This document shows, in pieces, positions 10,396 through 26,290 of a DNA stretch of 64,000 bases; positions within the stretch are counted from its first letter, which is position 1; every line of letters starts with the position of its first letter. The position numbers and the translations under genes are program-made. The stretch spans positions 33,194-97,193 of the forward strand of contig NZ_JAEFCF010000015.1 of assembly GCF_016405985.1 (NCBI RefSeq). The letters run 5' to 3'. Source of the DNA: Paracoccus sp. IB05 (GTDB taxonomy: Bacteria > Pseudomonadota > Alphaproteobacteria > Rhodobacterales > Rhodobacteraceae). The notes beneath the pieces were generated by a model. The model saw only the letters and a list, made by a program, of their open reading frames with translations, made no database searches and was not told the DNA's origin.

Positions 10396-10513
10396 ATTCA
10401 CGGGCAGGCGCATCGGGCGGGGGTTCCTGATGGCGAGGGTGACATGCGGGTGAGTGCCCGCCGGTTCCTTGCAGTCTGCAGTGACGTGCAAAACGCCTTT
10501 CGGGGTAAACTTC

Positions 10514-12655: not shown

Positions 12656-12665
12656 AAGCGCCCCC

Positions 12666-13619
12666 ATGACCGATGCCCCACAAGATGAAACCTTCGCGTT
12701 GCTTGAACGGCTTTTCGGCGCCGAAGGGCATTTGTGGAGCATCGGCACCCTTGCAGGGTTCATGGGGTTTGACCTGACCGGTATCCCGCAAAAGATCGGC
12801 GGGGCACTGGTGCTGGAAGGTGAGACCGGGCGCGCCCGCCTCGCCCCCGGCGCAAAGCTTCTCGCGTTCGAGACCCTCAGCAGCGAGCCGAGGGGCTGGA
12901 ACCACGGGATCGCGCTCTGCCAGGCGGGCGGGCCGCCGCCCCGGCCCCGCGACCGCCGCCTCACGGTGGTCGCGGATGACGCGGCCCTGGTCACCGCAGA
13001 CCAGGGCGCACCGGCGCTTGATCTGGGGCTGGGCCATGCCGGGCTTCGCTGTCTCTTTCGACCTGCAGCGACGACCCGCGCCCAGGCTCTGCTGCTGGCG
13101 GGCCAGCACTGGAACGATTGCCGCGAGGCGCTGGCCGCTCTGCCGGGTGACTGGATTGCCGAGACGCCTTTTCTGCGCGCCGAGCGGGTGGCGGATGGCG
13201 CCTGCCCGATCCATGCGATCCCTTCGGCCGGGAGCCGGGGCCTGACCCATGCCGCGACCACGCCGGTACCGGAGGGCTGGCTGCCCTTTGCCCATATCTT
13301 CCCGCCGCATCCGGCGCGGGTGCGCCCGGGACAGCTCCGCCCGTTCGATCCCGATCTCCATGCTGCATTCCAGACCATCCTCGCGCGTCACGGCCGCCCC
13401 GACCTGACGGCGCTGAAAGCCGCAACCCGCGCGCGGCTGCAAAACCACCTGCCGCCCGAGGCCACCGATGCGCCCGGTCAGAGACCCGACCGCCACGCCC
13501 AGGCCGTCATCCGCGTCACCCTTCGCCAATGGCTCGCCGAGACCGGCCTCGCCCCGCCCGAAGCCTGGCTCTCGCGCTATGACCGCCCGCTTCTGGCTGC
13601 GGTCCGGGGCCAGATATGA
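12666..13619 (+). CDS. Conserved-looking protein of unknown family in the receptor operon
   Basis: 317 residues, no signal peptide or membrane segment, so cytosolic. Position suggested a FhuF-type ferric-siderophore reductase, but the C-terminal cysteine cluster of FhuF is absent; the four cysteines (ALCQ, LRCLF, NDCRE, GACPI) are scattered through the chain. Notable segments are GHLWSIGTLAGFMGFDLTG near the N-terminus and WLPFAHIFPPHPARVRPGQ near residue 210. It starts 10 bases after the receptor gene and its end overlaps the next gene by 4 bases (ATGA), so it is co-translated with the uptake system. Function unknown; release or modification of the imported compound is one possibility. Confidence 0.75.
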   Translation: MTDAPQDETFALLERLFGAEGHLWSIGTLAGFMGFDLTGIPQKIGGALVLEGETGRARLAPGAKLLAFETLSSEPRGWNHGIALCQAGGPPPRPRDRRLTVVADDAALVTADQGAPALDLGLGHAGLRCLFRPAATTRAQALLLAGQHWNDCREALAALPGDWIAETPFLRAERVADGACPIHAIPSAGSRGLTHAATTPVPEGWLPFAHIFPPHPARVRPGQLRPFDPDLHAAFQTILARHGRPDLTALKAATRARLQNHLPPEATDAPGQRPDRHAQAVIRVTLRQWLAETGLAPPEAWLSRYDRPLLAAVRGQI

Positions 13620-14476
13620 CCCCCTTCCCCCCTTTGACGCGGCGCGGGGCGCTGGCGCTCGGGGTTTCGGCACTCCTTCCGGCCCTTGCGCCGCGCGGGG
13701 CCCGAGCACAGGACGCGCGCGCGCCCCGTTTTGTCACGAGCGAACTGATCCTGACCGAAACCGCGCTGGCGCTTGGGATCAGCCCGCTCGCCGCCGGCAA
13801 TCTGCCGCTCTATCGCCGCCTCGTCGGCGTTCCGGCTTTGCCCGATGGCCTCCATGACCTCGGCCCGCTCAATGAGCCGAATATGGAGCTGCTGGTTCAC
13901 CTTGCCCCCGATCTGATCATCGCCGCCGACTGGCAGCGCGGGCCGCAGGCGGCACTGGAGCGGATCGCGCCGGTCCTCTGGCTGGAGACAATGCCCTTTT
14001 CCCGCCCCGGTCTTGAGATCGCGACCGATCTGGCCCGAAAGATCGCCGAGGCGGGGCAGATCAGCGCGGATGACCTTGTCACCGGATTTGACCGCGCCCG
14101 GAACCGCCTGAGCCGGGCCATCGCCAGCCGCAACCCGCCTCCTGTTCTGCTGGCCCGCTTTCTGGAAGATGGCCGACACGCGCTGGTTTTCACCGAAGGC
14201 TCGCTGCCCGGCGATCTGCTGGCCGGGGCCGGAGGGCGCAATGCGCTTCCCGGCAGCGGCCCGCCGGGCGCCTTGCCGCTTGGCCTCAGCGAGATCCTCG
14301 CGACCGGCGCCCCGATCCTCGCCACCGGGCCGCTGCCGCAGGGCGCGCTCTTCACCCGTGTGATCGAAAGCGGCGCCCTGCGCGCCATTCCCTTGCCGCC
14401 GGTCTTCCCCGCAGGCGGCCTCGCCTCGGCCACCCGACTCGCCGATGCCCTTACAACCGGGATCGGGCTGATCTGA
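13616..14476 (+). CDS. FhuD/FecB-type periplasmic substrate-binding protein, Tat-exported
   Basis: 286 residues. The N-terminus carries twin arginines and a hydrophobic stretch (LTRRGALALGVSALLPALA), a Tat-like signal as in many FhuD proteins. The body shows the helical-backbone binding-protein pattern: FVTSELILTETALALGISPLA, NMELLVHLAPDLIIAADWQ, and a C-terminal lobe with GLSEILATGAPILATG. There is no lipobox. It should hand the compound brought in by the TonB receptor to the permease encoded next, whose ATG overlaps this stop codon (TGATG). Confidence 0.85.
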   Translation: MTPFPPLTRRGALALGVSALLPALAPRGARAQDARAPRFVTSELILTETALALGISPLAAGNLPLYRRLVGVPALPDGLHDLGPLNEPNMELLVHLAPDLIIAADWQRGPQAALERIAPVLWLETMPFSRPGLEIATDLARKIAEAGQISADDLVTGFDRARNRLSRAIASRNPPPVLLARFLEDGRHALVFTEGSLPGDLLAGAGGRNALPGSGPPGALPLGLSEILATGAPILATGPLPQGALFTRVIESGALRAIPLPPVFPAGGLASATRLADALTTGIGLI

Positions 14477-16407
14477 TGCGCGCCCTGCTGATCCTTTTGC
14501 CAGGCCTTGCCGCGCTGGTGCTCTTCGCGCTGAACGCCGGGACTGCGCTGCCGGGCCGCTGGCCAGCCGCGATCCTCTGGGCCGATCCGGGCGATATCCC
14601 GGCGCTTATCCTGCATCTGAGCGCCGTGCCGCGCCTCGTCACCGCCGCTCTGGCGGGGGCGGCGCTCGCGCTGGCCGGTGCTTTGCTGCAGCGCGTTTTC
14701 CGCAACCCGATTGCCGAGCCCGCGACGCTGGGAATCACCGCCGGGGCGCAATGTGCGCTGACGCTGACACTCCTGAACGCGCCGGGCCTTGCGCCGGCCT
14801 GGCTGCCGCTGCCGGCTTTCGCCGGCGCGCTGGCGGCGCTGGCGCTGGCGCTGGCGCTGGCCGCGCTGCAGGGGGTCTCGTCGCTCACGCTGATCCTGTC
14901 GGGGCTGGTGGTGACCACGAGCCTTGGCGGGCTGAATGCCGTGCTGACCCTGTTTCACCATGAGGTGCTGCAAAGCCTGTTCCTCTGGCAGGCGGGCGCG
15001 CTGGAGCAGGAGGGCTGGACCAGTGCCGCACGGCTTGCCCCGGCACTGGCGCTGGCGCTGATGCTCGCGCCTTTCGCGCGCAGGCCGCTCGAGGTGCTGG
15101 CGCTTGGCGATCAGGGCGCAAGGGTGCTGGGGCTGGCGCCGGGCGGCTGGCGGGTCATCCTGGCGACGGCGGCGGTGAGCCTTGCCGCGCTGGTGACCGC
15201 GCTGACCGGGGTTTTCGCCTTTCTCGGCATCATCGCACCGCTGGTGGCCCGCGCGCTGACCGGCCGGACGCCGGGAACCGGCGCGATTGCGGTGACGGGC
15301 GCCGGGATCCTGATGCTGGCGGATCAGCTGGTCCAGCTGCTGCGCCCCTGGATCCCGGTGCAGACCGGCACGCTTCTGGCCCTGATCGGGGCGGTGCTGA
15401 TGATCGCGCTGTTGCGAAAAAGCAGCCAGCCCGCGCCGGAGCATCTCCTGCCCGCTTTACCACGCCGCGCGCGGCCTGTGCCCCGGCTGTCCCTTCTTCT
15501 GCTGGGGCTTTTGGCGCTGTTTGCCGTCGCCCTTGCCATCGGGCGCGGGCCGGAGGGCTGGGACATCTCGCCCCTCGCCATGTTTGACTGGCGGGTGCCG
15601 CGCGTGGCCGGTGCTGCGGCAGCCGGTGCGGCCTTCGGTCTTGCGGGCTGCCTGATGCAGCGGCTGACCGGCAATCCGCTGGCCAGCCCCGAGCTTCTCG
15701 GCATCAGCGGCGCGGCGGCCCTTGGCCTCGTGCTGGCCGTCGTGATGACGGGCGGCGGCGGACGCGGGCTGCTTTACGGCGCCACCAGCCTTGGCGCTCT
15801 CGCAGGTCTTGTCCTGATCCTTGCCGCAGGTGCGCGGCTGCGGTTTTCTTCCGAAGGGCTGCTGCTTGCCGGGCTGGCGGTCTCGATGCTCCTGTCGGCG
15901 GTTCTGGCGATGCTGCTGGCCTCGGGCCATCCGCGCGCGGGGCAGCTGATGACCTGGCTCTCCGGCTCCACCTACCGGATCGCCCTTTCGGATGCCGTCA
16001 TCGCGTTGAGCGTGACGGCGGCGCTTCTTGGCCTCGCGCTGCTGCTCCGGCGCTGGCTCGACCTGCTGCCTCTCGGGCCGAACGCCGCCCGCCTGCTGGG
16101 GCTGCCGCTGACACGGGCCCGCGCAAGCGTGGTGGTGCTCGCGGCGCTGGCCACGGCTGTCGGCACGATCCTGACCGGCCCGCCGGGCTTCATCGGGCTG
16201 ATCGCCCCCGCCATCGCGCGGTTTTGCGGCCCGCCCCGCGCCAGCGCGCAACTGCCGCTTGCCACGATAAGCGGGGCTGCGCTGATGGTTCTGGCCGACT
16301 GGCTTGGCCGCAATCTGGCCTTCCCCTGGCAGATCCCTGCGGGGATGATGGCGCTGCTTTGCGGCGGGGTTTTCCTCATGATCTTTCTCGCAAGGAGACC
16401 GGCGTGA
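14476..16407 (+). CDS. FhuB-type fused FecCD permease (two permease halves)
   Basis: 643 residues, twice the usual 330 of BtuC/FecD, consisting of two FecCD domains in tandem (about 1-315 and 330-643). Both halves show the family's LRLPR-like start (LSAVPRLVTAALAGAALALAG; DWRVPRVAGAAAAGAAFGLAG), the NPLA/NPIAEP segment and the FxGLIAPxxAR motif (FLGIIAPLVARAL; FIGLIAPAIARFC) that contacts the ATPase. This fused architecture is known for hydroxamate siderophore permeases (FhuB) and is not that of BtuC. It pairs with the ATPase encoded next. Confidence 0.9.
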   Translation: MRALLILLPGLAALVLFALNAGTALPGRWPAAILWADPGDIPALILHLSAVPRLVTAALAGAALALAGALLQRVFRNPIAEPATLGITAGAQCALTLTLLNAPGLAPAWLPLPAFAGALAALALALALAALQGVSSLTLILSGLVVTTSLGGLNAVLTLFHHEVLQSLFLWQAGALEQEGWTSAARLAPALALALMLAPFARRPLEVLALGDQGARVLGLAPGGWRVILATAAVSLAALVTALTGVFAFLGIIAPLVARALTGRTPGTGAIAVTGAGILMLADQLVQLLRPWIPVQTGTLLALIGAVLMIALLRKSSQPAPEHLLPALPRRARPVPRLSLLLLGLLALFAVALAIGRGPEGWDISPLAMFDWRVPRVAGAAAAGAAFGLAGCLMQRLTGNPLASPELLGISGAAALGLVLAVVMTGGGGRGLLYGATSLGALAGLVLILAAGARLRFSSEGLLLAGLAVSMLLSAVLAMLLASGHPRAGQLMTWLSGSTYRIALSDAVIALSVTAALLGLALLLRRWLDLLPLGPNAARLLGLPLTRARASVVVLAALATAVGTILTGPPGFIGLIAPAIARFCGPPRASAQLPLATISGAALMVLADWLGRNLAFPWQIPAGMMALLCGGVFLMIFLARRPA

Positions 16408-17198
16408 CCCGCATGACCATTGGCGACCCCGCTGGATTTCATCTGGAAAATCTGGACCTTACCCTAAACGGTCAGCCGGTTCTGCAAGAGATCAGCCTGC
16501 GCCTTGCCCCCGGTCGGGTCTGTGGCGTGATCGGGCGCAACGGCTCGGGAAAGTCGAGCCTTTTGCGGGTGCTTGCCCGGCTGTCCCCGGTCGATGCCGG
16601 CCTGTGCCGCCTTGACGGCATCGCGCTTGACGCCTGGAGGGCGCGCGATTTCGCCCGCCGTGTCGCCCTGATGCCGCAAAGCGCGCCCGCCACCGGGGTC
16701 ATGGTGCTGCAGGATCTGGTGGCGCTTGGCCGCTATCCCTGGCATGGCGCCTTTGGCCGCGCGGGCCCGGAAGACCAGCGGGCCATTGCCGAAGCCATCG
16801 CGCTCTGCGGGCTGGAGGGGCTTGCCACGCGCCCCCTCGACAGCCTCTCGGGCGGTGAGGCGCAACGCGCCCGGCTTGCGATGATGCTGGCCCAGGGCGC
16901 TGACTGGCTGTTGCTGGATGAGCCCTCGGCCTCGCTCGACCTGGCCTGGTCTTTTGATCTTTTATCCGCCCTGCGGGGCCTTGCGCGCACGGCCGGGCGG
17001 GGTGTGGTGATCGCGCTGCATGACATGAACCTCGCGGCGCGGTTCTGCGATGATCTGGTCGCGCTGAAGGCGGGCCGGGTGACCGGCGCCGGAGCGGTCG
17101 CCGACGTGTTCCGCGCGCCGATCCTGAGCGAAACCTTCGGCCTTGCTGTCACCACCGGCAGCCTTTCGGGCCTGCCTGTCGCGATCCCCTCGCCCTGA
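16404..17198 (+). CDS. FhuC/FecE-type ABC ATPase
   Basis: 264 residues from a GTG at 16404 that overlaps the permease stop (GTGA) and has AAGGAG upstream. Walker A is GRNGSGKSS, the signature LSGGEAQRARLA, Walker B WLLLDEPSASLD, and the switch histidine lies in ALHDMNLAARF. Together with the fused permease it forms a type II importer. Last gene of the cobalamin-riboswitch operon; the next gene is convergent. Confidence 0.93.
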   Translation: MTRMTIGDPAGFHLENLDLTLNGQPVLQEISLRLAPGRVCGVIGRNGSGKSSLLRVLARLSPVDAGLCRLDGIALDAWRARDFARRVALMPQSAPATGVMVLQDLVALGRYPWHGAFGRAGPEDQRAIAEAIALCGLEGLATRPLDSLSGGEAQRARLAMMLAQGADWLLLDEPSASLDLAWSFDLLSALRGLARTAGRGVVIALHDMNLAARFCDDLVALKAGRVTGAGAVADVFRAPILSETFGLAVTTGSLSGLPVAIPSP

Positions 17199-17229
17199 TC
17201 TCCCCCTGATCCAATCCTCGGGCCCCATG

Positions 17230-17263
17230 AAAAACGCCGCTCCCGGAAGTTGGGAGCGGCGTT
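17230..17263 (-). terminator. Intrinsic terminator of the leftward TonB receptor unit
   Basis: AACGCCGCTCCC and GGGAGCGGCGTT make a perfect 12-bp stem around a seven-base loop. Read on the minus strand the stem is followed by a T-run, so it terminates transcription coming from the receptor gene at 17321-19417. The plus strand lacks a T-run but the hairpin may also slow read-through from the operon ending at 17198. Confidence 0.85.
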
Positions 17264-17320
17264 CAGAAGACTGACCCCTGTGAGAAACGTGAAGCCCGGC
17301 CAGCCCGTCTGTGGGATGGA

Positions 17321-19417
17321 TCAGAACCTGATCTGCGAGGTCAGATAGAAGGTGCGCCCGGCCTCGGGGTAGCCCTCAACCACCGAGACATTGCGGTCAA
17401 AGAGGTTGCGGATGCCAAAGCCCACATTCGCCTGATCGCTCACCTGCCAGGCCATATCGAAATTGGCCAGCGCGAAGCCGCCCATTTTCGTATAGATCGG
17501 CGCGTTGCGGTTCCCCGAGCCAATGGCCGGATCCGACCAGCGGCCGCCATAGACCTCGACCGAGGGCGAGATGGTCAGCCGGTCCATCGCCTGCCAGTCC
17601 AGCCGCAGATAGGCTTTGTGATCGGGCAGATCGGTCACTTTCGCGGTGGTGACAACCGGATCTTTGACGCTGGTATGCAGGTAGGTGTAATTCGCCGTCA
17701 GCGCGACACTGTCATTCACGTCCCAGTTCGCCGCGATCTCAAAGCCCTTATAGGTGCCTTTCGCGAGGTTCTGGCGCTGCGATTGCGGAAGACCGGAAAT
17801 CGGGTCGATCGTCCCCAGATCAATTGACTGGATCAGATCGGTGATGCGGCTGTAGAACACCGCGCCTTCCAGCTGCACCGGGCCAAGATCGCCCTTATAG
17901 CCCAGTTCGAAATTCAGCGCGCGCTCTGCATCCAGATCCGGGTTGGGCACCATCGAGCCAAAACCGGTCGAATAGCGGTGGAAGAGCGTCGGGAAGCTGG
18001 TCCTGGACGAGAGGCTCGCATGATATTCGCCGCCTGCACCCGGGGTCCAGATCGCAGCCAGCTGCCAGTTCACCGCATCGACCGAGACCGTCGGCTTGCC
18101 CGGACTGGCAGCAGTGCGGTCGGCCTCAAGCACTTTCGCCTTGTCATAGGACAGGCCCGCAACGATGCGCAGCTCGTCATTGACGCGCCAGGTGTCCTCG
18201 ACCGCCAGCGAGAGGGTCTCTTCCTTGCTGTGCTCGGTCGGATCGATCCGTGCCAGCGTCGGATGGTCGGGACGCGCGTAATTGGTGGAGCGGTGGACAT
18301 CGCGGCGGAAGAAAGACGCGATCCGCAGATCGTGATCGCCAAAGCTCAGCCCGTATTCGACGCTGCCGCCGACCGAATAGTCGTCATAGACGCTGTTAAA
18401 GGCCCGCGCGAGGGTCTGGGCGGAATGGTTCGCATTGTCCCAGGCCGAGAGCGTATTGTCGAACGTGTTGTAGAAAAGCCTGGTCTTCAGCGTACCGGAT
18501 CCGACTTCGGTCGTCGAATAGAAGGCGATGCTGCTGATATCCCATTGCGGCCAGGTCCAGTCCCGCTGGTTCGACCCCGGACCGGTGCCCGGATAGCCCA
18601 TGACCGGCAGAAGCGTGCTGTAAGGCGCCGATTTCGACCCTTCCTGGCGGGTATAGCTCAGGACATATTCGTCGGTCGCATTGGGCGTATAGCCAACTTT
18701 AAGGTTCAGACGGCTGTCATCGGTGGCGCTGTCTTTGCGCAGACCTTCGCCCTGATAGGGGTAGCGCGGATCGGGAACATAATCGCGCGACAGGTAGAAA
18801 CCGTCGACATCGCGCCGCATGTAAGAGACCTGGCCGTACCAGAATTCCTGTTTCGTGCCGAGCGAGAGATAGCCCGTGCGCCCCGTCACATCGCCGCGAT
18901 TGCCGGCGTCGATGCCCAGCCGCGCCTCGCCTTCGAAGGGCTGCGTCGGTTTGCGGGTCACGAGGTTGATCGCGCCGCCCATGCCGCCCGGGCCGTTGAT
19001 CACCGAGACATAGCTTTTCTGCACCTGGACCTCGGCAAGATCCGGGGTCAGGAAGCGGCCATGATCCAGCCGGTTGTCGGCAGGCAGAAAGATGCGGATG
19101 CCGTCAATCGACAGCGGCACATGCCAGCGGTCAAAGCCGCGCACGAAAACCTCGCGCTCGTTTCTGGATCCACCGCCCGAGGGGGTGGAAGACACGCCGG
19201 GCAGAACGCTGAGTGTGTCATCAAGCGTGGCGCGGTTCTGTTTCGCGGCCTCTTCGCCGGTCACTTTCGCGGTGGTCCCCCCCTGACCTTCATCATCGAC
19301 GCCAAGCCAGATCGTGCCGAGCGCGAAGGCGGCTTCCTCGGAGGACTGGGCGAAAACGGGGGCGGACAGCCCGGGGAATAACAGACCTGCAATCACCAGT
19401 CGCTGCAATAAAGACAT
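17321..19417 (-). CDS. TonB-dependent receptor of the molbindin-associated uptake locus
   Basis: 698 residues from the ATG at 19417, chosen because GGAAGGA lies 7 bases upstream and the signal peptide (MSLLQRLVIAGLLFPGLSAPVFA) starts there; another ATG sits at 19438. A TonB-box-like LGTIWLGVDDEGQGG follows, nearly the same as in the receptor at 10514-12655. The plug is complete (LDDTLSVLPGVSSTPSGGG; VQVQKSYVSVINGPGGMGGAINLVTR) and the barrel ends in QIRF. It lies 162 bases past the ATPase gene, with an operator-like palindrome in that gap, so it can be transcribed both from its own promoter and with the mop operon. I infer import of a molybdenum or tungsten species or its chelate. Confidence 0.9.
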   Translation of the reverse strand: MSLLQRLVIAGLLFPGLSAPVFAQSSEEAAFALGTIWLGVDDEGQGGTTAKVTGEEAAKQNRATLDDTLSVLPGVSSTPSGGGSRNEREVFVRGFDRWHVPLSIDGIRIFLPADNRLDHGRFLTPDLAEVQVQKSYVSVINGPGGMGGAINLVTRKPTQPFEGEARLGIDAGNRGDVTGRTGYLSLGTKQEFWYGQVSYMRRDVDGFYLSRDYVPDPRYPYQGEGLRKDSATDDSRLNLKVGYTPNATDEYVLSYTRQEGSKSAPYSTLLPVMGYPGTGPGSNQRDWTWPQWDISSIAFYSTTEVGSGTLKTRLFYNTFDNTLSAWDNANHSAQTLARAFNSVYDDYSVGGSVEYGLSFGDHDLRIASFFRRDVHRSTNYARPDHPTLARIDPTEHSKEETLSLAVEDTWRVNDELRIVAGLSYDKAKVLEADRTAASPGKPTVSVDAVNWQLAAIWTPGAGGEYHASLSSRTSFPTLFHRYSTGFGSMVPNPDLDAERALNFELGYKGDLGPVQLEGAVFYSRITDLIQSIDLGTIDPISGLPQSQRQNLAKGTYKGFEIAANWDVNDSVALTANYTYLHTSVKDPVVTTAKVTDLPDHKAYLRLDWQAMDRLTISPSVEVYGGRWSDPAIGSGNRNAPIYTKMGGFALANFDMAWQVSDQANVGFGIRNLFDRNVSVVEGYPEAGRTFYLTSQIRF

Positions 19418-19483
19418 CAGGAATCCTTCCAGTGGCATGGCTTTTCATCCGCACCCGCCGGGCTTTCGGCGGATTTTCGCGAA

Positions 19484-19509
19484 TCGATATGTATGATGAA
19501 ATATATCGA
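19484..19509. promoter_or_regulatory. Mo-box-like operator before the TonB receptor gene
   Basis: A 26-bp imperfect palindrome with arms TCGATATGTA and AATATATCGA around a 6-base spacer; 8 of 10 arm positions pair. The layout resembles ModE-type Mo-boxes (inverted CGxTATATA-like halves, spacer about 6). It agrees at 19 of 26 positions with the element before mop (23110-23135). It lies 67-92 bases upstream of the receptor ATG. Binding of a ModE/MopA-type regulator is inferred. Confidence 0.55.
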
Positions 19510-19579
19510 AACGAAATTGGCAAGAAGCCCGGGCGCAGGTTCCGGGGTCTTTTTCCCGGGCGTAGCAATCCGATCACTG

Positions 19580-20365
19580 TCAGTAGAAATGCGGCCTTCC
19601 GTCAGGCCCCTCGATCCGGCGCACCGGAAGGCCGTAAAGCCGGCTCAGGGCGGCTTCCTGCATGACGTCGGAAACCGGCCCCGAAGCGATCACACCGGCG
19701 CGGCTGACCAGCAGCGCCTCATCGCCCAGCATTGCCGCCTGGCCCGGATCATGGGTCGAGACCACCACCGCCTGGCCCGCTGCCGCCAGACCAAGGATCG
19801 CGGCCTCCACCGCTTTGACATTGGCAAAATCGAGGCTGGCGGTCGGCTCGTCCATCACCAGAACCTGCGCCTCCTGCGCGAGGGCGCGGGCGATCAGCAC
19901 CATCTGACGCTGGCCACCCGAAAGCCGCGTGACATCCTCATCCGCCAGATCCGCAATGCCGAGCCGGTCAAGCGCGGCCATTGCGCGGGCCTCTTCGGCG
20001 CGACCGGGACGGGCAAAGGCACCGAGGCCCACCGAAGCCCCCATCAGCACAATATCCCGCGCCGTATAGGCAAAAGGCGAGGCCAGCGCCTGGGGCACAT
20101 GCGCCAGCCGGGCGGCAATCTGGCTGCGGCTCAGACCGTCCAGATCGGCGCCGCCCAGCAAGACCTTGCCCGCAACCGGCGGGATCAGCCCCAGAAGGGT
20201 GCGAAACAGCGTGGTCTTCCCCGCCCCGTTCGGGCCGAGGAGGCACAGAACCCGCCCCGCATGAAGGTCGAACCCAATGCCCCGGATCAGTGCCCGGGCG
20301 CCATGGCCGACCGCCAGATCACGCGCCGACAGCAGCGGCGCCCCAGTCGCTGTCAGCCGTTCCAT
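19580..20365 (-). CDS. FecE/MolC-type ABC ATPase
   Basis: 261 residues. Walker A GPNGAGKTT, Q-loop HVPQALASPF, signature LSGGQRQMVLIARAL, Walker B VLVMDEPTASLD and switch histidine VSTHDPGQAA are all present. It overlaps the permease gene by 13 bases, so the two are translationally coupled. Energises the type II importer of the molbindin operon. In Haemophilus influenzae the structurally related MolBC transporter carries molybdate/tungstate, which supports the same use here, though sequence alone cannot separate it from siderophore ATPases. Confidence 0.93.
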   Translation of the reverse strand: MERLTATGAPLLSARDLAVGHGARALIRGIGFDLHAGRVLCLLGPNGAGKTTLFRTLLGLIPPVAGKVLLGGADLDGLSRSQIAARLAHVPQALASPFAYTARDIVLMGASVGLGAFARPGRAEEARAMAALDRLGIADLADEDVTRLSGGQRQMVLIARALAQEAQVLVMDEPTASLDFANVKAVEAAILGLAAAGQAVVVSTHDPGQAAMLGDEALLVSRAGVIASGPVSDVMQEAALSRLYGLPVRRIEGPDGRPHFY

Positions 20366-21357
20366 GCCCGCGCCCCCCTGGCCAGCAGGACCACGAAAAC
20401 CGGCGCGCCAAGCACGGCGGTCAGGATGCCCAGCGGCACTTCCATCGGTGCGATCATCCGGGCGGCGGTATCGACCAGCACCATGAACGATGCCCCCGCC
20501 AGCAGCGCCGCCGGCAGCATCCGGTCAAAGCGCGGCCCCGCCACCAGTCGCGCCATATGCGGCACCATCAGCCCGATCCAGCCGATCACCCCCGCCAGCG
20601 CCACCGCCGCCGCCGTGATCAGCGTCGCCGCCGCGATCACCACAAACCGCAGGCGCCCGGCCTCGATCCCCATCGCGCGGGCCTCGTCATCGCCCATCGC
20701 CAGAAGCCCGATCCGCCAGCGCAGCGCGATCAGCGGCACGAGGCCCAGGATCACCGCAGGCGCCGCCGCCAGCAGATCGACCCGCTTGACGCCGGCAAGG
20801 CTGCCCATCAGCCAGAAGGTGATCGCGGGAAGCTGCTCATCGGGATCAGCGAGCAGCTTCACCAGCGAGATCCCCGCCCCCGCCAGCGCGCCGATCACGA
20901 TCCCGCATAAGACCATGACCAGAAGCTGCGCACCGCCCCTGAGCGCCAGTGTCAGCCCGATCACCAGCGCCACCGTCGCGAGCCCAAAGCCAAAGCCCAT
21001 CAGCTGGATCGCCATCACCGGCAGGCCCAGCAAGATCCCGAGCACCGCGCCAAACCCCGCCCCGGCCGAGACGCCAAGGATATCGGGCGAGACCAGCGGG
21101 TTGCGGAACACCACCTGATAGGCCGCCCCCGCCGCTGCCAGCCCCGCCCCGATCAGCGCCGCAGAGATCACCCTTGGGCCGCGGATATTCCACAGCACCA
21201 CCTGCGCCTGGCGATCATCCCCAGCCCCCGTCAGGCCGCCGGTCAGCCCGCCGGTCAAAGCATCGAAAATCTGGCCGGGGCTCAGCGGGTAAGGCCCGAG
21301 ACCGATCCCGAGGATCAGCGCGAAGACCAGCGCCAGCGCCAGCAGGGAAAGCCGCAT
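20353..21357 (-). CDS. BtuC/MolB-type FecCD permease
   Basis: 334 residues from the ATG at 21357; a longer frame begins at 21408 inside the binding-protein gene. About ten membrane segments, with family landmarks IRGPRVISAALIGAGLAAAG, FRNPLVSPDILGVSAGAGFG and IGWIGLMVPHMARLVAG. One FecCD domain, so it works as a homodimer, unlike the fused permease at 14476-16407. Forms the membrane part of the importer with the ATPase encoded next. Confidence 0.92.
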   Translation of the reverse strand: MRLSLLALALVFALILGIGLGPYPLSPGQIFDALTGGLTGGLTGAGDDRQAQVVLWNIRGPRVISAALIGAGLAAAGAAYQVVFRNPLVSPDILGVSAGAGFGAVLGILLGLPVMAIQLMGFGFGLATVALVIGLTLALRGGAQLLVMVLCGIVIGALAGAGISLVKLLADPDEQLPAITFWLMGSLAGVKRVDLLAAAPAVILGLVPLIALRWRIGLLAMGDDEARAMGIEAGRLRFVVIAAATLITAAAVALAGVIGWIGLMVPHMARLVAGPRFDRMLPAALLAGASFMVLVDTAARMIAPMEVPLGILTAVLGAPVFVVLLARGARAWNG

Positions 21358-21373
21358 TCTTCTGGTCCCGATC

Positions 21374-22417
21374 CTATTCGCCCAGCAACGCGTCCAGCGC
21401 TGCCGCATCCGGCGTCACCTGGTAGAAGAGCGTGTAGAAATCCGCGATCTCCTGGCGCAGATCACCCTGTTCCAGATCTCCCCCGACCAGGTCCGGGTAG
21501 AAGACATGCGCCAGATATTTCAGCCCGATCAAGCGGTTGACCGAAGGCGGCGCGTCGATAAAGCCAAAGGGCTCACCGGGTGCAAGATAGACGCGGCCCT
21601 GATCGACCGCCGGGATCCCCTGCCATTCCGGCATCCTGCGCACATTGGCCGCGAAATCGCGGTCCACCGTCAGAATGATATCCGGCGCCCAGGCCTGGAT
21701 CTGTTCGGGCGAGACCGTCACCAGCCCGCGCGTCTCGGCCTCGACCACATTGATGCCGCCCATCCGTTCAATGATCTCGGCATTGATCGAGCCGCGCGCC
21801 GGGCTTTCCAGCCCCTCCGGACCACGGGCCAGGTAGACGCGGGGGCGGTCTGCATCGGGCACCTGGGCAAGCAAAGCGTCAGCCTCCGCATAGGCGGCTT
21901 CTGCGTAAGTTGCGAGCTGCTCGCCCCGCGCTTCGACCCCAAGGATCGCCGCCATCTCACGGATCGCCTGCGGCGTCGCGGCAAAGCTGCCATCGATCAG
22001 CACATAGGGCAGCCCCGCCTGATCCTGCACCCGCGTCGCAAGGTCGCGGTACGTGGCATTGACGGTGCCGAAATCGACGATCAGCTCGGCCCCGGTGGTC
22101 AAAAGCACCTCAAGGTTCAGCGTATCGCCCTTGCCGGTCAGCCGCCCCAGCGCCGGCAACCCGCGCGTCTCAGGCAAAAGATAAGGCAGATCGACGGGTT
22201 TTGGCGCCATCACCCAGCCGACCATCGCTTCGGGCTTCAGCGCATAAAGCAGCACCGAGGCAGGCGGCCCGGCGGCAAAGACCTTTGCCGGGTTCAGAGG
22301 CACCAGCACCTCGCGGCCGGTGGCATCGGTCACGCTTTGACCGTCAAATGCCAGAACCGGCGCGGCCAGGGCGGCAAAAACCGCGGCCAGCATGGCGCGG
22401 CGGGTTGGGAAGCTCAT
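21374..22417 (-). CDS. Periplasmic binding protein of the molbindin operon (FecB/MolA-like)
   Basis: 347 residues with a signal peptide (PTRRAMLAAVFAALAAPVLA). The mature protein reads as a two-lobed helical-backbone binding protein: DATGREVLVPLNPAKVFAAG, LLYALKPEAMVGWV, and the segment YLARGPEGLESPARGSINAE followed by IIERMGGINVV, a pattern I associate with metal-oxyanion or metallophore binding proteins of this class rather than FhuD. No lipobox. Its ATG overlaps the stop of the TsaA-like gene (ATGA), tying it to the mop operon. Confidence 0.85.
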   Translation of the reverse strand: MSFPTRRAMLAAVFAALAAPVLAFDGQSVTDATGREVLVPLNPAKVFAAGPPASVLLYALKPEAMVGWVMAPKPVDLPYLLPETRGLPALGRLTGKGDTLNLEVLLTTGAELIVDFGTVNATYRDLATRVQDQAGLPYVLIDGSFAATPQAIREMAAILGVEARGEQLATYAEAAYAEADALLAQVPDADRPRVYLARGPEGLESPARGSINAEIIERMGGINVVEAETRGLVTVSPEQIQAWAPDIILTVDRDFAANVRRMPEWQGIPAVDQGRVYLAPGEPFGFIDAPPSVNRLIGLKYLAHVFYPDLVGGDLEQGDLRQEIADFYTLFYQVTPDAAALDALLGE

Positions 22418-22872
22418 GGAATCGCTCCGAATTCGCCTTTGATATCAACAAGCGGCGTGCCATCGACACAATCGAGGCCGCGCACATGCAGAACCGCGCC
22501 TTCAACCCGCAACAGCCGCACCACCGTTGCCGCGATCGGATTGGGCCGGACCGGCGAGCGCAGCGAGAATGTCCCCACAGAGGCATCGCCGAAATTCGGG
22601 TTCTGCCGCATCAGATCGCGGCGCGAGAGATGCATCCAGTATAACAGCTGGATCCGCTCGCGCCCCTCGACCCCCGCCAGGCCCTCGATCCAGCGCGGGT
22701 CAAGTTCGACCCGGCAATCGGGCCCAGTCTCGGGATCGCCCCGGCGCGGGCACTGGCTGCGATCGGTCCAGGGGGTGCGCAACCGGCCGATGAACCAGAT
22801 CGAGGCGTCGAATGCCCCGGGCAGCGGCACCGCCACCTCATGCGGGCGCAGGTCGGTCACGTGATCAGTCAT
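22414..22872 (-). CDS. TsaA/TrmO-like domain protein in the molbindin operon
   Basis: 152 residues. The core FSLRSPVRPNPIAATVVRLL followed by GLDCVDGTPLVDIKG matches the TsaA/TrmO (YaeB, VirR) domain; TrmO N6-methylates t6A37 in some tRNAs with SAM. This protein is only the N-terminal domain in size and lacks the C-terminal part of full TrmO (about 235 residues). Two short Cys-containing segments (QCPRRGD, PDCRVE) are unusual. It overlaps mop by 8 bases and the binding-protein gene by 4, so it is locked into a metal-uptake operon, which suggests a role other than general tRNA modification. Confidence 0.8.
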   Translation of the reverse strand: MTDHVTDLRPHEVAVPLPGAFDASIWFIGRLRTPWTDRSQCPRRGDPETGPDCRVELDPRWIEGLAGVEGRERIQLLYWMHLSRRDLMRQNPNFGDASVGTFSLRSPVRPNPIAATVVRLLRVEGAVLHVRGLDCVDGTPLVDIKGEFGAIP

Positions 22873-23074
22873 CGGTGCCGATCATCACATCCGAGGCCTT
22901 GATCACCGCCGAGGCCTTTGCGCCCACGGTCAGACCCAGCTCTTTCACCGCCTCATTGGTGATCGCCGCCGTGACAATCGAGCCGCCAAGATCAAGGCGG
23001 ACATGGCTCGTCACCGCGCCGGTGACAATCTCGATCACCGTTCCCGGCAGGACATTTCGGGCGCTCAGTCGCAT
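22865..23074 (-). CDS. mop: Molbindin, Mop-type molybdate-binding protein
   Basis: 69 residues consisting of one TOBE/Mop domain: MRLSARNVLPGTVIEIVTGAV, SHVRLDLGGS, SIVTAAITNEAVKELGL and AVIKASDVMIGTDD are near-identical to known molbindins such as Mop of Rhodobacter and Clostridium MopII. These form cytosolic hexamers that store or buffer molybdate and tungstate. First gene of a six-gene leftward series. The Mo-box-like site lies 36-61 bases before its ATG. It gives the operon its metal assignment. Confidence 0.95.
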   Translation of the reverse strand: MRLSARNVLPGTVIEIVTGAVTSHVRLDLGGSIVTAAITNEAVKELGLTVGAKASAVIKASDVMIGTDD

Positions 23075-23109
23075 CTCGGTCTCTCCCCTGATGGCGGCCC
23101 TATGGCCGC

Positions 23110-23135
23110 GCCATATGTATGGTGCAACACATCGG
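23110..23135. promoter_or_regulatory. Mo-box-like operator before mop
   Basis: A 26-bp element with arms GCCATATGTA and AACACATCGG (6 of 10 arm positions pair) around a 6-base spacer. It matches the element at 19484-19509 at 19 of 26 positions, including most of the spacer. Position just upstream of the molbindin gene fits a molybdenum-responsive regulator. Confidence 0.5.
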
Positions 23136-23268
23136 AGGGAGCAGCAAGCCCCGGCGCCCTGGCCACTCGGCCTGCCATGTGCAAAGCTGCGTGCAAAGCT
23201 GCGCGGAAAATATGCGTTTTGCCCGGGCGCCCGCTCTGCCAGGATGGACAGAGCAACCGGAGAACCGC

Positions 23269-24009
23269 ATGCGGATCGCCCTTCTCAGCGATATTCATGG
23301 CAATCGCGAAGCGCTGGAGGCAGTGCTTGCCGATGCGGCGGCGCGGGATATCGGGCGCTGTGTGATCCTTGGCGATATCGTCGGATATGGCCCGGATCCG
23401 GCCTGGTGCGTGCAGCGGATCCAGGAGATGGAGGCCGCCGGCGCCCTGGTGATCCGGGGCAATCATGATGCCGCCATCGCAGGATCGGCGCGCGATATGA
23501 ACGCCACGGCGCGGGCATCCATCGACTGGACGCGGCCACGGCTTTCCGCCGCGCAGACCGGCTGGCTTGCCGCGCTGCCGCTGACGATCCGCGAGGAGGA
23601 CCGGCTTTACACCCATGCCTCGGCCCATAGCCCGGGCGACTGGATCTATGTCACCTCGGACCGCGATGCGATGGCAAGCTTTCGCAGCTCTGACGCCGGT
23701 GTGATCTTTTGCGGTCACGTCCATGTGCCGGCGCTTTACAGCAGTGACATCCATGACCGCATCCAGGCCCATGCAGAGAGGCCCCGGATCCCGGTGCCGC
23801 TTTTGGCGTCGCGGCGCTGGCTGGTGGTGGCAGGCTCGGTCGGGCAGCCCCGCGATGGCAGCCCCCAGGCCGGCTGGGCCATCTTTGACACTGCGACCCG
23901 CGAGCTCAGCTTTCGCCGCACGCCCTATGATACCGCCGTCACCGCCGGAAAAATCCAGGCTGCCGGCCTGCCCGAAGAGCTTGCCCTGCGCCTGAGGAGC
24001 GGAGAATGA
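23269..24009 (+). CDS. Metallophosphoesterase (calcineurin-like), partner of a Ser/Thr kinase
   Basis: 246 residues from MRIALLSDIHGNREAL, which holds the first metal motif DIHGN. Further motifs: VILGDIVGYGPDP (GD), VIRGNHDAA (GNHD), YTHASAHS and FCGHVHVPAL (GHxH). This is the YfcE/ApaH/PrpE-like branch that includes Ser/Thr protein phosphatases and cyclic-nucleotide phosphodiesterases. Its stop overlaps the start of the kinase-USP gene (ATGA), so the two are co-translated; a kinase-phosphatase pair is a natural reading but unproven. The longer upstream frame from 23119 is not protein-like. Confidence 0.88.
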   Translation: MRIALLSDIHGNREALEAVLADAAARDIGRCVILGDIVGYGPDPAWCVQRIQEMEAAGALVIRGNHDAAIAGSARDMNATARASIDWTRPRLSAAQTGWLAALPLTIREEDRLYTHASAHSPGDWIYVTSDRDAMASFRSSDAGVIFCGHVHVPALYSSDIHDRIQAHAERPRIPVPLLASRRWLVVAGSVGQPRDGSPQAGWAIFDTATRELSFRRTPYDTAVTAGKIQAAGLPEELALRLRSGE

Positions 24010-25415
24010 GCCGCAGCCAGAAACGCCCGGCCGAGGGGCTTCAGATCGACGGTTTCACGCTTGGCCCGCTTTTGCATCGCGGCGGCTTTGCCACGATATG
24101 GGAGGTCACCCATCCGGACCATCCCGGGCCAATGGTGATGAAAGTGCCGACCATCCTCGACGGTGATGACGGGCCGACGATTGTGGGATTCGAGATTGAA
24201 CAGATGATCCTGCCGCGCCTTTCGGGCCCGCATGTACCCCGGCTGATCGCGGCGGGCGATTTCGCGGTCATGCCCTATCTGGTGACGGCAAAACTGCCAG
24301 GCACCTCGTTCCAGGAGCTGTTTGACCGCGCGCCGCTGCCGCCCGATCAGCTGGTCGCGCTGGCCATCGAGATCGCGACGGCGCTGCATGAGGTGCATCG
24401 CCAGCGGGTGATCCACCTGGACCTCAAGCCCGGCAATCTGATGCGCGATGAGGCCGGGCGGCTGGTGCTGATAGATTATGGCCTCGCACGCCATCTTGAT
24501 CTGCCGGACCTGCTGGGCGAGGAATTTGCCATTCCGATGGGCACTTTCCCCTATATCGCGCCCGAACAGTATCTGCATCACCGCGATGATCCGCGTTCGG
24601 ATATTTTCGCTTTCGGCGCCATGCTTTACGAGCTTGCGACCGGAAGGCTGCCCTTTGGCCGGACCACCACGCTGCGCGCCGTGCGCCGCCGCCTCTGGCG
24701 CGACCCACAGCCGCCGCGCGCGCTGAACCCCGACCTGCCGCCCTGGTTGCAGGAGATCATCCTGCGCGCGCTGGAGGTCGAGCCGGAAGATCGCTTTCAG
24801 TCGGCGGCGCAGATGGCCTTTGACCTTGGCCATCCCGATCAGGTGCAGCTGACCGCCCGCGCCACAAAGCTGGAGCAGGACGGCGTCTGGCCGGTCCTGC
24901 GGCGGCGCTGGCGCGCGCGGCGGATCCGGGGCTACCTGCCGGCACCGACACAAGAAGACACCGCCCGCGCCCAGGTGGTGATGGCCGCCGTCGACCTCTC
25001 GCCCGAGATGGAGGCTTTGTCGCAGGAGATCCTCAGCGCCACACGCGAGATCCTGCATTTCCGCCCCGAGGCGCGGCTCGCCTGTGTCAATGTGCTGCGC
25101 AGCGCGCGGATCCAGCTGGATCAGGGCACCGATGAAGCGGGCAACAATCTGCATGTCGCCCGCCTTGTCGCGCTGAAAGCCTGGGGCGAGGCACTGGGCC
25201 TGCCCGAAGGCCGCGTGACCTATACCGTGCTGGAGGCCCCCGACCCCGGCAATGCGCTGACCGAACACGCGACCCGTATCCTTGCCGGTCATATCGTGAT
25301 GGGCGCGCGGGCAAGTTCGGCGCTCCGCCGCTATCTTGGCTCGGTCTCGGCCCAGGTGGTGGCCGAAGCGCCCTGCACCGTGACCATCGTGCGTCTGCCC
25401 GCCCCCGGAATCTGA
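24006..25415 (+). CDS. Ser/Thr protein kinase fused to a universal stress protein domain
   Basis: 469 residues. The kinase domain (about 15-290) has a short glycine loop (LLHRGGFATIWEV), catalytic-lysine candidate K46 (MVMKV), catalytic loop HLDLKPGN (137-144, so a non-RD type), DYG in place of DFG (157-159) and APE (185-187). A basic linker (RRRWRARRIRGYLPAP) leads to a UspA-like domain (about 329-465) with VVMAAVDLSPEM, and the nucleotide-binding signature HIVMGARASSALRRYLGSVS followed by VAEAPCTVTIVR. No membrane segment. It probably couples phosphorylation to a stress or ATP-sensing Usp module. Overlaps the phosphoesterase gene by 4 bases. Confidence 0.88.
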   Translation: MSRSQKRPAEGLQIDGFTLGPLLHRGGFATIWEVTHPDHPGPMVMKVPTILDGDDGPTIVGFEIEQMILPRLSGPHVPRLIAAGDFAVMPYLVTAKLPGTSFQELFDRAPLPPDQLVALAIEIATALHEVHRQRVIHLDLKPGNLMRDEAGRLVLIDYGLARHLDLPDLLGEEFAIPMGTFPYIAPEQYLHHRDDPRSDIFAFGAMLYELATGRLPFGRTTTLRAVRRRLWRDPQPPRALNPDLPPWLQEIILRALEVEPEDRFQSAAQMAFDLGHPDQVQLTARATKLEQDGVWPVLRRRWRARRIRGYLPAPTQEDTARAQVVMAAVDLSPEMEALSQEILSATREILHFRPEARLACVNVLRSARIQLDQGTDEAGNNLHVARLVALKAWGEALGLPEGRVTYTVLEAPDPGNALTEHATRILAGHIVMGARASSALRRYLGSVSAQVVAEAPCTVTIVRLPAPGI

Positions 25416-25498
25416 GACCTCTGCGCTGAGAGCGGGGCCTTTTCGTGCCCGGCAAATCAGGCTAGCCATGGGCGGAACAATTCTCCCGGGGAAATCCG

Positions 25499-26290
25499 AT
25501 GCCGCGCTCCTGTTCTTTCAGCCACGCAATCAGCCGCAAACCGGCGCAATCGATCATCCGGGGGCTGCGCGCTGTTGATACCGGCAACCCGGATCTTGCC
25601 CTGATGGAGGAACATCACAGCGCCTATATCGCAGCCTTGCGCTCGACCGGGGCCGAGGTCACGGTGCTGGAGGCGCTGGACGCCTATCCGGACAGTGTTT
25701 TTGTCGAAGACACCGCGCTCTGCCTGCCCGAAGGGGCGGTGATCATGCGGCCCGGCGCGCCCTCGCGCCTTGGCGAAGCGGCTGAGATGGAGCCGCATCT
25801 GCGCGCGCTTTACAGCGAGATCCGCCGCATTGAGGGCGAAGACAGTTTCATCGAAGGCGGCGATATCCTGATGGGCGAGACCGAGATCCTTGTCGGCCGC
25901 TCGGCCCGGACCAATGAGGCCGGGATCGCGGAGCTTGCGCGTCTGGTCGCCGATTGGGGCCAGGTGGTGCGCGAGGTCCATACCCCGCCGGGCGTGCTGC
26001 ATTTCAAGACCGATTGCTCGCTGATGGATGCGGAAACCGTGCTCGCGACCGACCGGCTGGCGGCATCGGGCTGTTTCACCGGCTATAAGGTGATCGCGGT
26101 TGCCGAAGGGGAAGAGGCCTCGGCCAATGCGATCCGCTTCAACGGGATCGTGCTCTTCCCCGCCGGTTTCCCAAAAACCCGCGACCGGCTGGTGGCGGCG
26201 GGCTATGAGGTGGTCGAGATCGGCAATTCCGAATGCCAGAAAATCGATGGCGGCATGTCCTGCCTGTCCTTGCGTTTCACGCCACGCTGA
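25499..26290 (+). CDS. Dimethylargininase (DDAH) family hydrolase
   Basis: 263 residues. Guanidino-modifying superfamily marks are complete: FVEDTA (E70, D71), IEGGDIL (119-124), catalytic histidine H168 (GVLHFKTDCS) and nucleophile C255 (GGMSCLSLRF). The length and the C-terminal GGMSCLSLRF match DDAH, which releases dimethylamine or methylamine from methylated arginines; arginine deiminases are much longer. Start at the ATG at 25499, preceded by CGGGGAAATCCG. Downstream gene begins within a few bases of the stop. Confidence 0.9.
   Translation: MPRSCSFSHAISRKPAQSIIRGLRAVDTGNPDLALMEEHHSAYIAALRSTGAEVTVLEALDAYPDSVFVEDTALCLPEGAVIMRPGAPSRLGEAAEMEPHLRALYSEIRRIEGEDSFIEGGDILMGETEILVGRSARTNEAGIAELARLVADWGQVVREVHTPPGVLHFKTDCSLMDAETVLATDRLAASGCFTGYKVIAVAEGEEASANAIRFNGIVLFPAGFPKTRDRLVAAGYEVVEIGNSECQKIDGGMSCLSLRFTPR

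Follow-up and report, generated by a model that had tools for sequence, protein, structure and literature searches.

We interpret a group of six genes in Paracoccus sp. IB05 as a system that takes up molybdenum(VI) or tungsten(VI) species across two membranes and belongs to a ModE-type regulon, and we put the probability of this reading at about 0.83. The stretch of DNA analysed, hereafter the window, consists of 64,000 nucleotides (nt) of contig NZ_JAEFCF010000015.1 (positions 33,194-97,193), and the genes occupy positions 17321-23074 of the window on its minus strand. Coordinates below are window positions, and those in other loci are preceded by the locus number (L006 and so on). The gene set, the ModE-type boxes, the conserved neighbourhood, the receptor clade and the fold neighbours were all computed here, and from them we infer the direction of transport, the substrate, the repression, the energy coupling and the role of the methyltransferase. 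An initial annotation made from the sequence alone had proposed that molybdenum or tungsten is moved across both membranes. This proposal is now supported by boxes at both transcription units, by molybdenum-linked genes that neighbour related importers and not the control importers, by MolA as a fold neighbour, and by the receptor clade, which is found beside a ModE-like gene in two genomes. Porins are usually held to let molybdate through the outer membrane, and to our knowledge there is no known molybdenum receptor of the TonB-dependent type; none was listed in searches of the open-licence literature, read as titles and beginnings of abstracts, regulon databases and subscription journals being outside the scope. 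Energy-driven import of molybdenum or tungsten through both membranes, the most likely function of the cluster, would put a familiar type of transporter to a new use.

Organization of the gene cluster

All six genes lie on the minus strand in the order given by the initial annotation, with mop at the head, and both Pfam and NCBIfam agree with its domain assignments throughout. The mop gene (22865-23074) encodes a small molbindin of 69 amino acids with one Mop domain. Its product passes the curated Mop cut-off (TIGR00638, 79.5 bits against 55) and is predicted from this to bind molybdate or tungstate. It is followed by the genes for a TrmO_N-like S-adenosylmethionine methyltransferase of 152 amino acids (22414-22872; PF01980, 93.4 bits), a periplasmic binding protein with a MolA-like fold (21374-22417; PF01497, Peripla_BP_2, 65.4 bits), a FecCD/BtuC-type permease (20353-21408; PF01032, 275.4 bits), an ATP-binding cassette (ABC) ATPase (19580-20365; PF00005, ABC_tran, 110 bits) and a TonB-dependent receptor (17321-19438).

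The overlapping series that had been described for the whole cluster holds for the first five genes and not for the receptor. The five overlap by 4 to 35 nt: 8 nt between mop and the TrmO-like gene, 4 nt between the latter and the binding-protein gene, 35 nt between binding protein and permease when the longest starts are used, and 13 nt between permease and ATPase. The receptor gene is 141 nt away from the ATPase gene, and because this gap (19439-19579) has a ModE-type box of its own, the receptor probably constitutes a second transcription unit. Its start is probably 19417 rather than 19438, since the Rhodovulum copies begin at the equivalent of residue 8. A sigma-70 scan of 17000-23400 returned two promoter-like sites compared with 1.0 expected, none of them in an intergenic gap. 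When the RNA of the ATPase-receptor gap was folded, z was -1.59 and 16 of 200 shuffled sequences were equally stable.

ModE-type boxes

The ModE consensus used here is ATCGNTATATA-N6-TATATANCGAT. Its best match in the window, upstream of the receptor gene at 19483-19510 with the core TCGATATGTA-N6-AATATATCGA, agrees with this consensus at 17 of 20 positions, compared with 12-14 in 20 Markov sequences of 64 kb. A matrix was also built from 22 sites chosen among the best consensus matches in L006-L024, with the sites of the window excluded. With this matrix from other species, the receptor box ranks first in the window (44.1 bits), and a weaker box upstream of mop (23109-23136) ranks second (16.0 bits). 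Among 30 Markov sequences of 64 kb the highest matrix score was 14.9 bits, and among 300 Markov pieces of the 251-nt mop promoter region it was 3.7 bits, which means that the mop box is only just beyond chance at the scale of the whole window and clear of the background of its promoter region. A box is thus present at the promoters of both units, as judged by this consensus, and binding and repression by ModE are predicted from it.

The pattern was also scanned through the whole genome (5.29 Mb), and the only site without mismatch is the receptor box. There are two sites with one mismatch, one of them 14 nt ahead of modA and the other flanked by a LysR-type gene at a distance of 61 nt and, on the other side, by a formate dehydrogenase-N alpha gene at about 365 nt. 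Two sites have two mismatches, upstream of a DUF2478 gene and of a Fic-domain gene with no evident molybdenum role. Four of the five sites with at most two mismatches are therefore at the receptor, modA, formate dehydrogenase-N or DUF2478 gene. A further 17 sites have three mismatches, and one of these lies before a second formate dehydrogenase-N gene. When the pattern was reversed, 9 places were found in the genome, compared with 22 for the true pattern. Therefore, the motif marks molybdenum genes in this genome, with its best copy at the receptor. In the same genome, a ModE-like protein (L067:9818-10207) that consists of the DNA-binding domain only adjoins modABC, where the box lies just before modA.

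The association was also evaluated for receptors of other loci. With each locus left out of the matrix, a box of at least 12 bits was found between -300 and +60 of the start in 17 of 28 receptors (that of the window, 22 beside the same kind of binding protein and 5 others) and in none of 11 control receptors (p 7e-4); random pieces taken from these loci with their true sites give a frequency of 2.9%.

Some further observations concern the other genes with boxes. The DUF2478 gene of the genome (L092:966-1481) has its box 20 nt upstream, and DUF2478 proteins, which form a family of unknown function (PF10649), recur beside the importer in other loci (L016:6606-7154, L042 and L045). The two formate dehydrogenase-N alpha genes near boxes are in L090 and L078 of the same genome. 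On inspection by eye, the reading frame of one runs to a stop at the position where selenocysteine is usually found, and the other has a cysteine there; the one with the stop adjoins selD.

Conserved neighbourhood of the importer

When bacterial and archaeal genomes were scanned for close relatives, 17 loci were identified in other species of Rhodobacterales, belonging to Paracoccus, Pseudogemmobacter, Rhodovulum, Rhodobacter, Sinirhodobacter and Xinfangfangia. The synteny to which the initial annotation had drawn attention is not limited to this strain, as all 17 loci keep both the TrmO-like and the binding-protein genes. Every locus also has the ATPase, though L009 and L022 only in part; the permease is present in 16, the receptor in 13 (fragmented in L008, L020 and L022) and the small mop gene in 11 (partial in L021 and L022). 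The receptor gene is placed variably: it may lie downstream as in the window (L006), or it may be divergent, as in L007 and others, or convergent, as in Rhodovulum. In Rhodovulum locus L016 the system is adjoined by ModE, ModA, ModB and DUF2478 genes. In Pseudogemmobacter bohemicus (L022:7200-13000) the whole system is split into several frames, like a decaying copy. The locus of Paracoccus denitrificans DSM 413 (L021) has the importer together with DUF2478 and TrmO-like genes and a partial mop match only, and no receptor was matched within its 17 kb.

Beyond these relatives, the binding-protein profile (E up to 1e-60) was matched in 7 of 198 genomes in the family sample, in 10 of 398 for the phylum, in 20 of 385 for the class and in 4 of 274 from a different class. 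These samples have genomes in common, and the genome of the window is in three of them. The distribution of the binding protein is sporadic but wide.

The neighbourhoods of 60 family loci were then compared with those of 18 control loci, which carry other FecCD permeases of the same or related genomes. Profiles were used for Mop, TrmO-like, ModA, ModB, ModE, ModD, DUF2478, MoeA, MsrP and class I methyltransferase proteins, the transporter parts and the receptor, and only Mop, ModA, ModE, ModD, DUF2478, MoeA and MsrP were counted as molybdenum-linked, the TrmO-like protein and the receptor not being counted. Such a gene is nearby in 41 of the 60 loci (17/20 in L006-L025 and 24/40 in L026-L066) and in none of the 18 controls. 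The profiles were seeded from the window, L007, L010, L016, L021 and L024-L031, so only L032-L066 are free of seeds; in this set the count is 19/35 compared with 0/18 (Fisher p 4e-5, for loci that are partly related and with neighbourhood thresholds fixed after a first look at the results). L026 and L027 came from a TrmO search, and L023-L029 and L031 were hand-picked from plasmid matches, which favours molybdenum-linked loci. The control set omits three matches to the present family, the Fhu permease of the window, second permeases per locus and matches below 60 bits; two of its loci (L074 and L085) are short, and one (L083) carries a TrmO_N-like gene. The explanation that mop is a chance neighbour was rejected, since molybdenum-linked genes are found near the related loci and near none of the control FecCD loci.

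The receptor clade

In a tree of 37 receptors, rooted at the midpoint only, 23 form one clade with support 100/100. It comprises the receptor of the window and 22 others beside this binding protein, from Alphaproteobacteria and Gammaproteobacteria (the latter E. coli and Proteus), while all 10 control receptors and the other receptor of the window (10454-12655) fall outside. That other receptor belongs to a Fhu-type siderophore system on the plus strand (10454-17198), which converges on the molybdenum receptor gene and consists of the receptor, a DUF6925 protein, a binding protein, a fused FhuB and an ATPase.

The receptor profile (E up to 1e-80) matched 10 of the 398 genomes in the phylum sample, 5 of which also have the binding protein. 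Three of the five loci without the binding protein have a box. In L098 the receptor has one of 19.3 bits and adjoins a ModE-like gene, and divergent to it are ModA and ModB genes above the cut-off and a ModC-like gene below it. A ModE-like gene is directly upstream of the receptor in L099 (box 12.7 bits), and the receptor of L100 has a box of 34.6 bits. From the arrangements in L098 and L099, the receptor accompanies molybdenum genes even without this inner-membrane importer.

Protein families and structural models

The molbindin motifs SARN and KASDV are mostly retained across 17 aligned mop copies, the copy in L025 having diverged. The TrmO-like protein scores below the TIGR00104 equivalog cut-off (88.0 compared with 93.25 bits) and is therefore classed as TrmO_N-like only; its 152 amino acids leave no space for the C-terminal TrmO domain, and its nearest solved structure is 3okx (RPA0152), with E 2.6e-42. 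The importer has a FecCD permease and a MolA-fold binding protein, as in the MolABC type, and its binding of molybdate or tungstate is a prediction only. The AlphaFold model of the binding protein (predicted local distance difference test, pLDDT, 93.4) was compared with 1000 chains. Its neighbours in the PDB by Z are 4pag (37.4), 4ovk (28.8), 4hn9 (28.8) and MolA 3psa (27.0; root-mean-square deviation 2.9 over 297 aligned residues). MolA is the nearest structure that names a ligand in its title, with the other three ahead of it in rank.

These data also bear on whether the system might be an importer of ferric siderophores, heme or cobalamin with mop as a passenger, as the annotation of relatives as 'iron ABC transporter' would have it. 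The FecCD permease, the Peripla_BP_2 domain and the receptor domains are typical of iron and B12 systems. YiuA, which was solved with iron and catecholate, has Z 25.1 to the binding-protein model, two units under MolA, and the fold of the binding protein alone would not decide between an oxyanion and a catecholate. The receptor is of the Plug and beta-barrel type (PF07715, 48.2 bits; PF00593, 137.4 bits), and its model (pLDDT 82.5), rich in long strands, fits PirA, BtuB, Fiu, PfeA and OprC about equally, with 15-19% identity to PirA, BtuB, Fiu and OprC. On the other hand, no iron, heme or B12 cut-off was passed among the matches listed (for the ATPase, 25 of 187 families), and the permease is below the cut-off of all 16 NCBIfam families that it matched. 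For cobalamin uptake the scores are 20.9 of the 234 bits required for BtuF, 202.6 of 461 for BtuC and 98.3 of 599.7 for TonB-B12; for siderophore and heme uptake they are 28.1 of 298.65 for IsdE, 131.8 of 223.5 for TonB-siderophor and 146.1 of 316.85 for TonB-hemin. No Rfam family, the cobalamin riboswitch included, was matched at the gathering score within 12000-26000, and cobalamin import was rejected from this result and the missed equivalog cut-offs.

Comparison with known systems

The nearest characterised importer is MolBC-A of Haemophilus, reported as a molybdate importer in which molybdate represses molB by way of an unknown factor (PMC4031551). MolABC (HI1470-1472) of Haemophilus influenzae resembles the present system in being of the FecCD/BtuC type and in the fold of its binding protein. 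However, the identity is about 22%, the subfamily motifs ARGPxGLE and PFGxxDxPPxxNR are not kept in the aligned stretch of MolA, MolABC is described as having low affinity, and in the window mop, a TrmO-like gene and a gene for a TonB receptor accompany the importer. The receptors OprC, PirA, Fiu and BtuB share the Plug and barrel fold, whereas the receptor of the window lies in a clade of its own with respect to the TonB control receptors and is associated with ModE-type boxes. The ModABC/ModE regulon has the same type of box, and its ModA and ModB genes adjoin this receptor in one relative; in contrast to the present system, ModABC is a type I importer and serves the inner membrane only.

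A homologous locus is found in enterobacteria (E. coli and Proteus), where the genes for a binding protein, FecCD permease, ATPase, methyltransferase, ModD and TonB receptor stand together. Its binding protein has 34-39% identity to that of the window, its receptor belongs to the same clade, and boxes are located in front. It differs in having a class I methyltransferase and ModD where the window has the TrmO-like protein and Mop. The related locus with ModD is present in 2102 of 5426 complete E. coli genomes, in which it is annotated as iron transport. One E. coli copy (L029:7929-14355) is on a plasmid, and elsewhere the locus is mostly chromosomal.

Points against the interpretation and alternative explanations

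Several findings weigh against a molybdenum or tungsten importer that spans both membranes. First, the same genome carries ModABC, and molybdenum import through the present system would therefore be an addition. Second, the cut-off of 98.5 bits is missed by the ModE-like protein of this genome (85.1 bits) and by those of L098 (73.1 bits) and L099 (94.2 bits), and the molybdate-binding domain was not seen in any of the three. As a guess, the molbindin of the operon might provide the sensing part that is missing from the ModE-like protein of the genome. Third, the boxes are not universal. Ten of the 28 receptors have no box of at least 5 bits (three Rhodovulum ones, L042, L044, L063-L065, L101 and L102), and at the level of whole loci a box of at least 16 bits is present in 12 of the 40 non-matrix loci compared with 1 of 18 controls (p 0.046), or in 10 of 35 when L032-L066 are taken alone (p 0.07). 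The sole control box (L078) lies before a formate dehydrogenase gene. Fourth, 16 of the 40 loci L026-L066 have no listed molybdenum-linked gene in reach, L050 having a TrmO-like gene only; these 16 include loci cut by contig ends (L059 and L061) and L046, which was counted although its membership of the family is doubtful. Fifth, the clade leaves out three receptors of low score that lie near the binding protein (L038, L060 and one in L065), five of the ten receptor-bearing genomes have no binding protein by its profile, and L101 and L102, among the loci without it, show neither a molybdenum-linked gene nor a box. Moreover, no binding or uptake data for this subfamily of binding proteins were found, and MolA is described as having low affinity (PMC4031551), which is at odds with a scavenging role.

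In addition, among the 29 loci of the same family or class (L032-L041 and L046-L064), a receptor of at least 400 bits is near the importer in only 3, and therefore the importer does not depend on the receptor. In 8 of 40 loci, including L026:8152-8961 and L033:7961-8950, the operon of the FecCD importer contains or adjoins a gene for a lone ModA-like protein; ModA normally serves a type I importer. Taken with the 26 importers that have no strong receptor match, this suggests that the substrate can also pass porins, which favours a free oxyanion or a small chelate.

As for the cargo, tungstate instead of molybdate as the main one is a variant of the interpretation above that we hold to be unlikely. 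Molbindins and ModE bind both molybdate and tungstate, and formate dehydrogenases of this kind use tungsten in some bacteria. MolA is reported to bind both ions as well (PMC4031551). Against this, the same type of box is located at ModABC, which points to a molybdenum economy.

It is quite improbable that the cluster is a member of the molybdenum regulon that imports something else when molybdenum is short, such as vanadate or iron for alternative enzymes. A precedent is Azotobacter, where VnfA1 is reported to activate receptor genes that share operons with ABC genes when molybdenum and vanadium are absent (PMC9542535). However, no NifH was found above the cut-off in the genome, so there is no sign of a nitrogenase switch as far as NifH, the one marker tested, can tell, and iron for an alternative nitrogenase was rejected on this result. 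The operon furthermore encodes Mop, a protein of oxyanion-binding type, and relatives carry ModA, ModD and MoeA genes. Least probable of all is the importer of iron, heme or cobalamin considered with the protein families, against which stand, besides the missed cut-offs, the ModE-type boxes at both transcription units and the molybdenum-linked genes at related loci compared with none at the 18 control FecCD loci.

Proposed mechanism

Under the preferred interpretation, namely uptake of molybdenum or tungsten through both membranes, a ModE-type protein would repress both units when molybdenum is ample and would leave the boxes at 19483 and 23109 when it is scarce. The receptor would then pull the molybdenum or tungsten species through the outer membrane on TonB energy, the MolA-like binding protein would receive it in the periplasm, and the FecCD permease and the ATPase would carry it inwards. 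In the cytoplasm, the molbindin may accept the oxyanion and supply the synthesis of cofactor for enzymes such as the two formate dehydrogenases that lie near similar boxes, and the TrmO_N-like methyltransferase may act on the imported complex or its carrier.

A more specific form of this mechanism, which we regard as possible but tentative, is a molybdophore pathway, in which a molybdenum chelate instead of free molybdate would pass through the receptor and the importer, and linked methyltransferases would modify the carrier in the cytoplasm to release the metal. The enzymes concerned would be the TrmO_N-like protein in Alphaproteobacteria and, in enterobacteria, the class I methyltransferase together with the phosphoribosyltransferase-like ModD. 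If this were true, the metal would be freed to the molbindin and cofactor synthesis by alkylation, in place of the reduction or hydrolysis that is used with siderophores.

Implications

If the system does transport molybdenum or tungsten across both membranes, the existence of a receptor clade with ModE-type boxes would mean that in some Proteobacteria molybdenum uptake is paid for with TonB energy, and hence that there is a molybdenum species outside the cell too scarce or too large for porins. Since the related locus of so many E. coli genomes is annotated as iron transport, a common function of the cell may be mislabelled. The finding also makes a search for natural molybdophores, and for the roles of ModD and TrmO-like proteins, open to direct tests.

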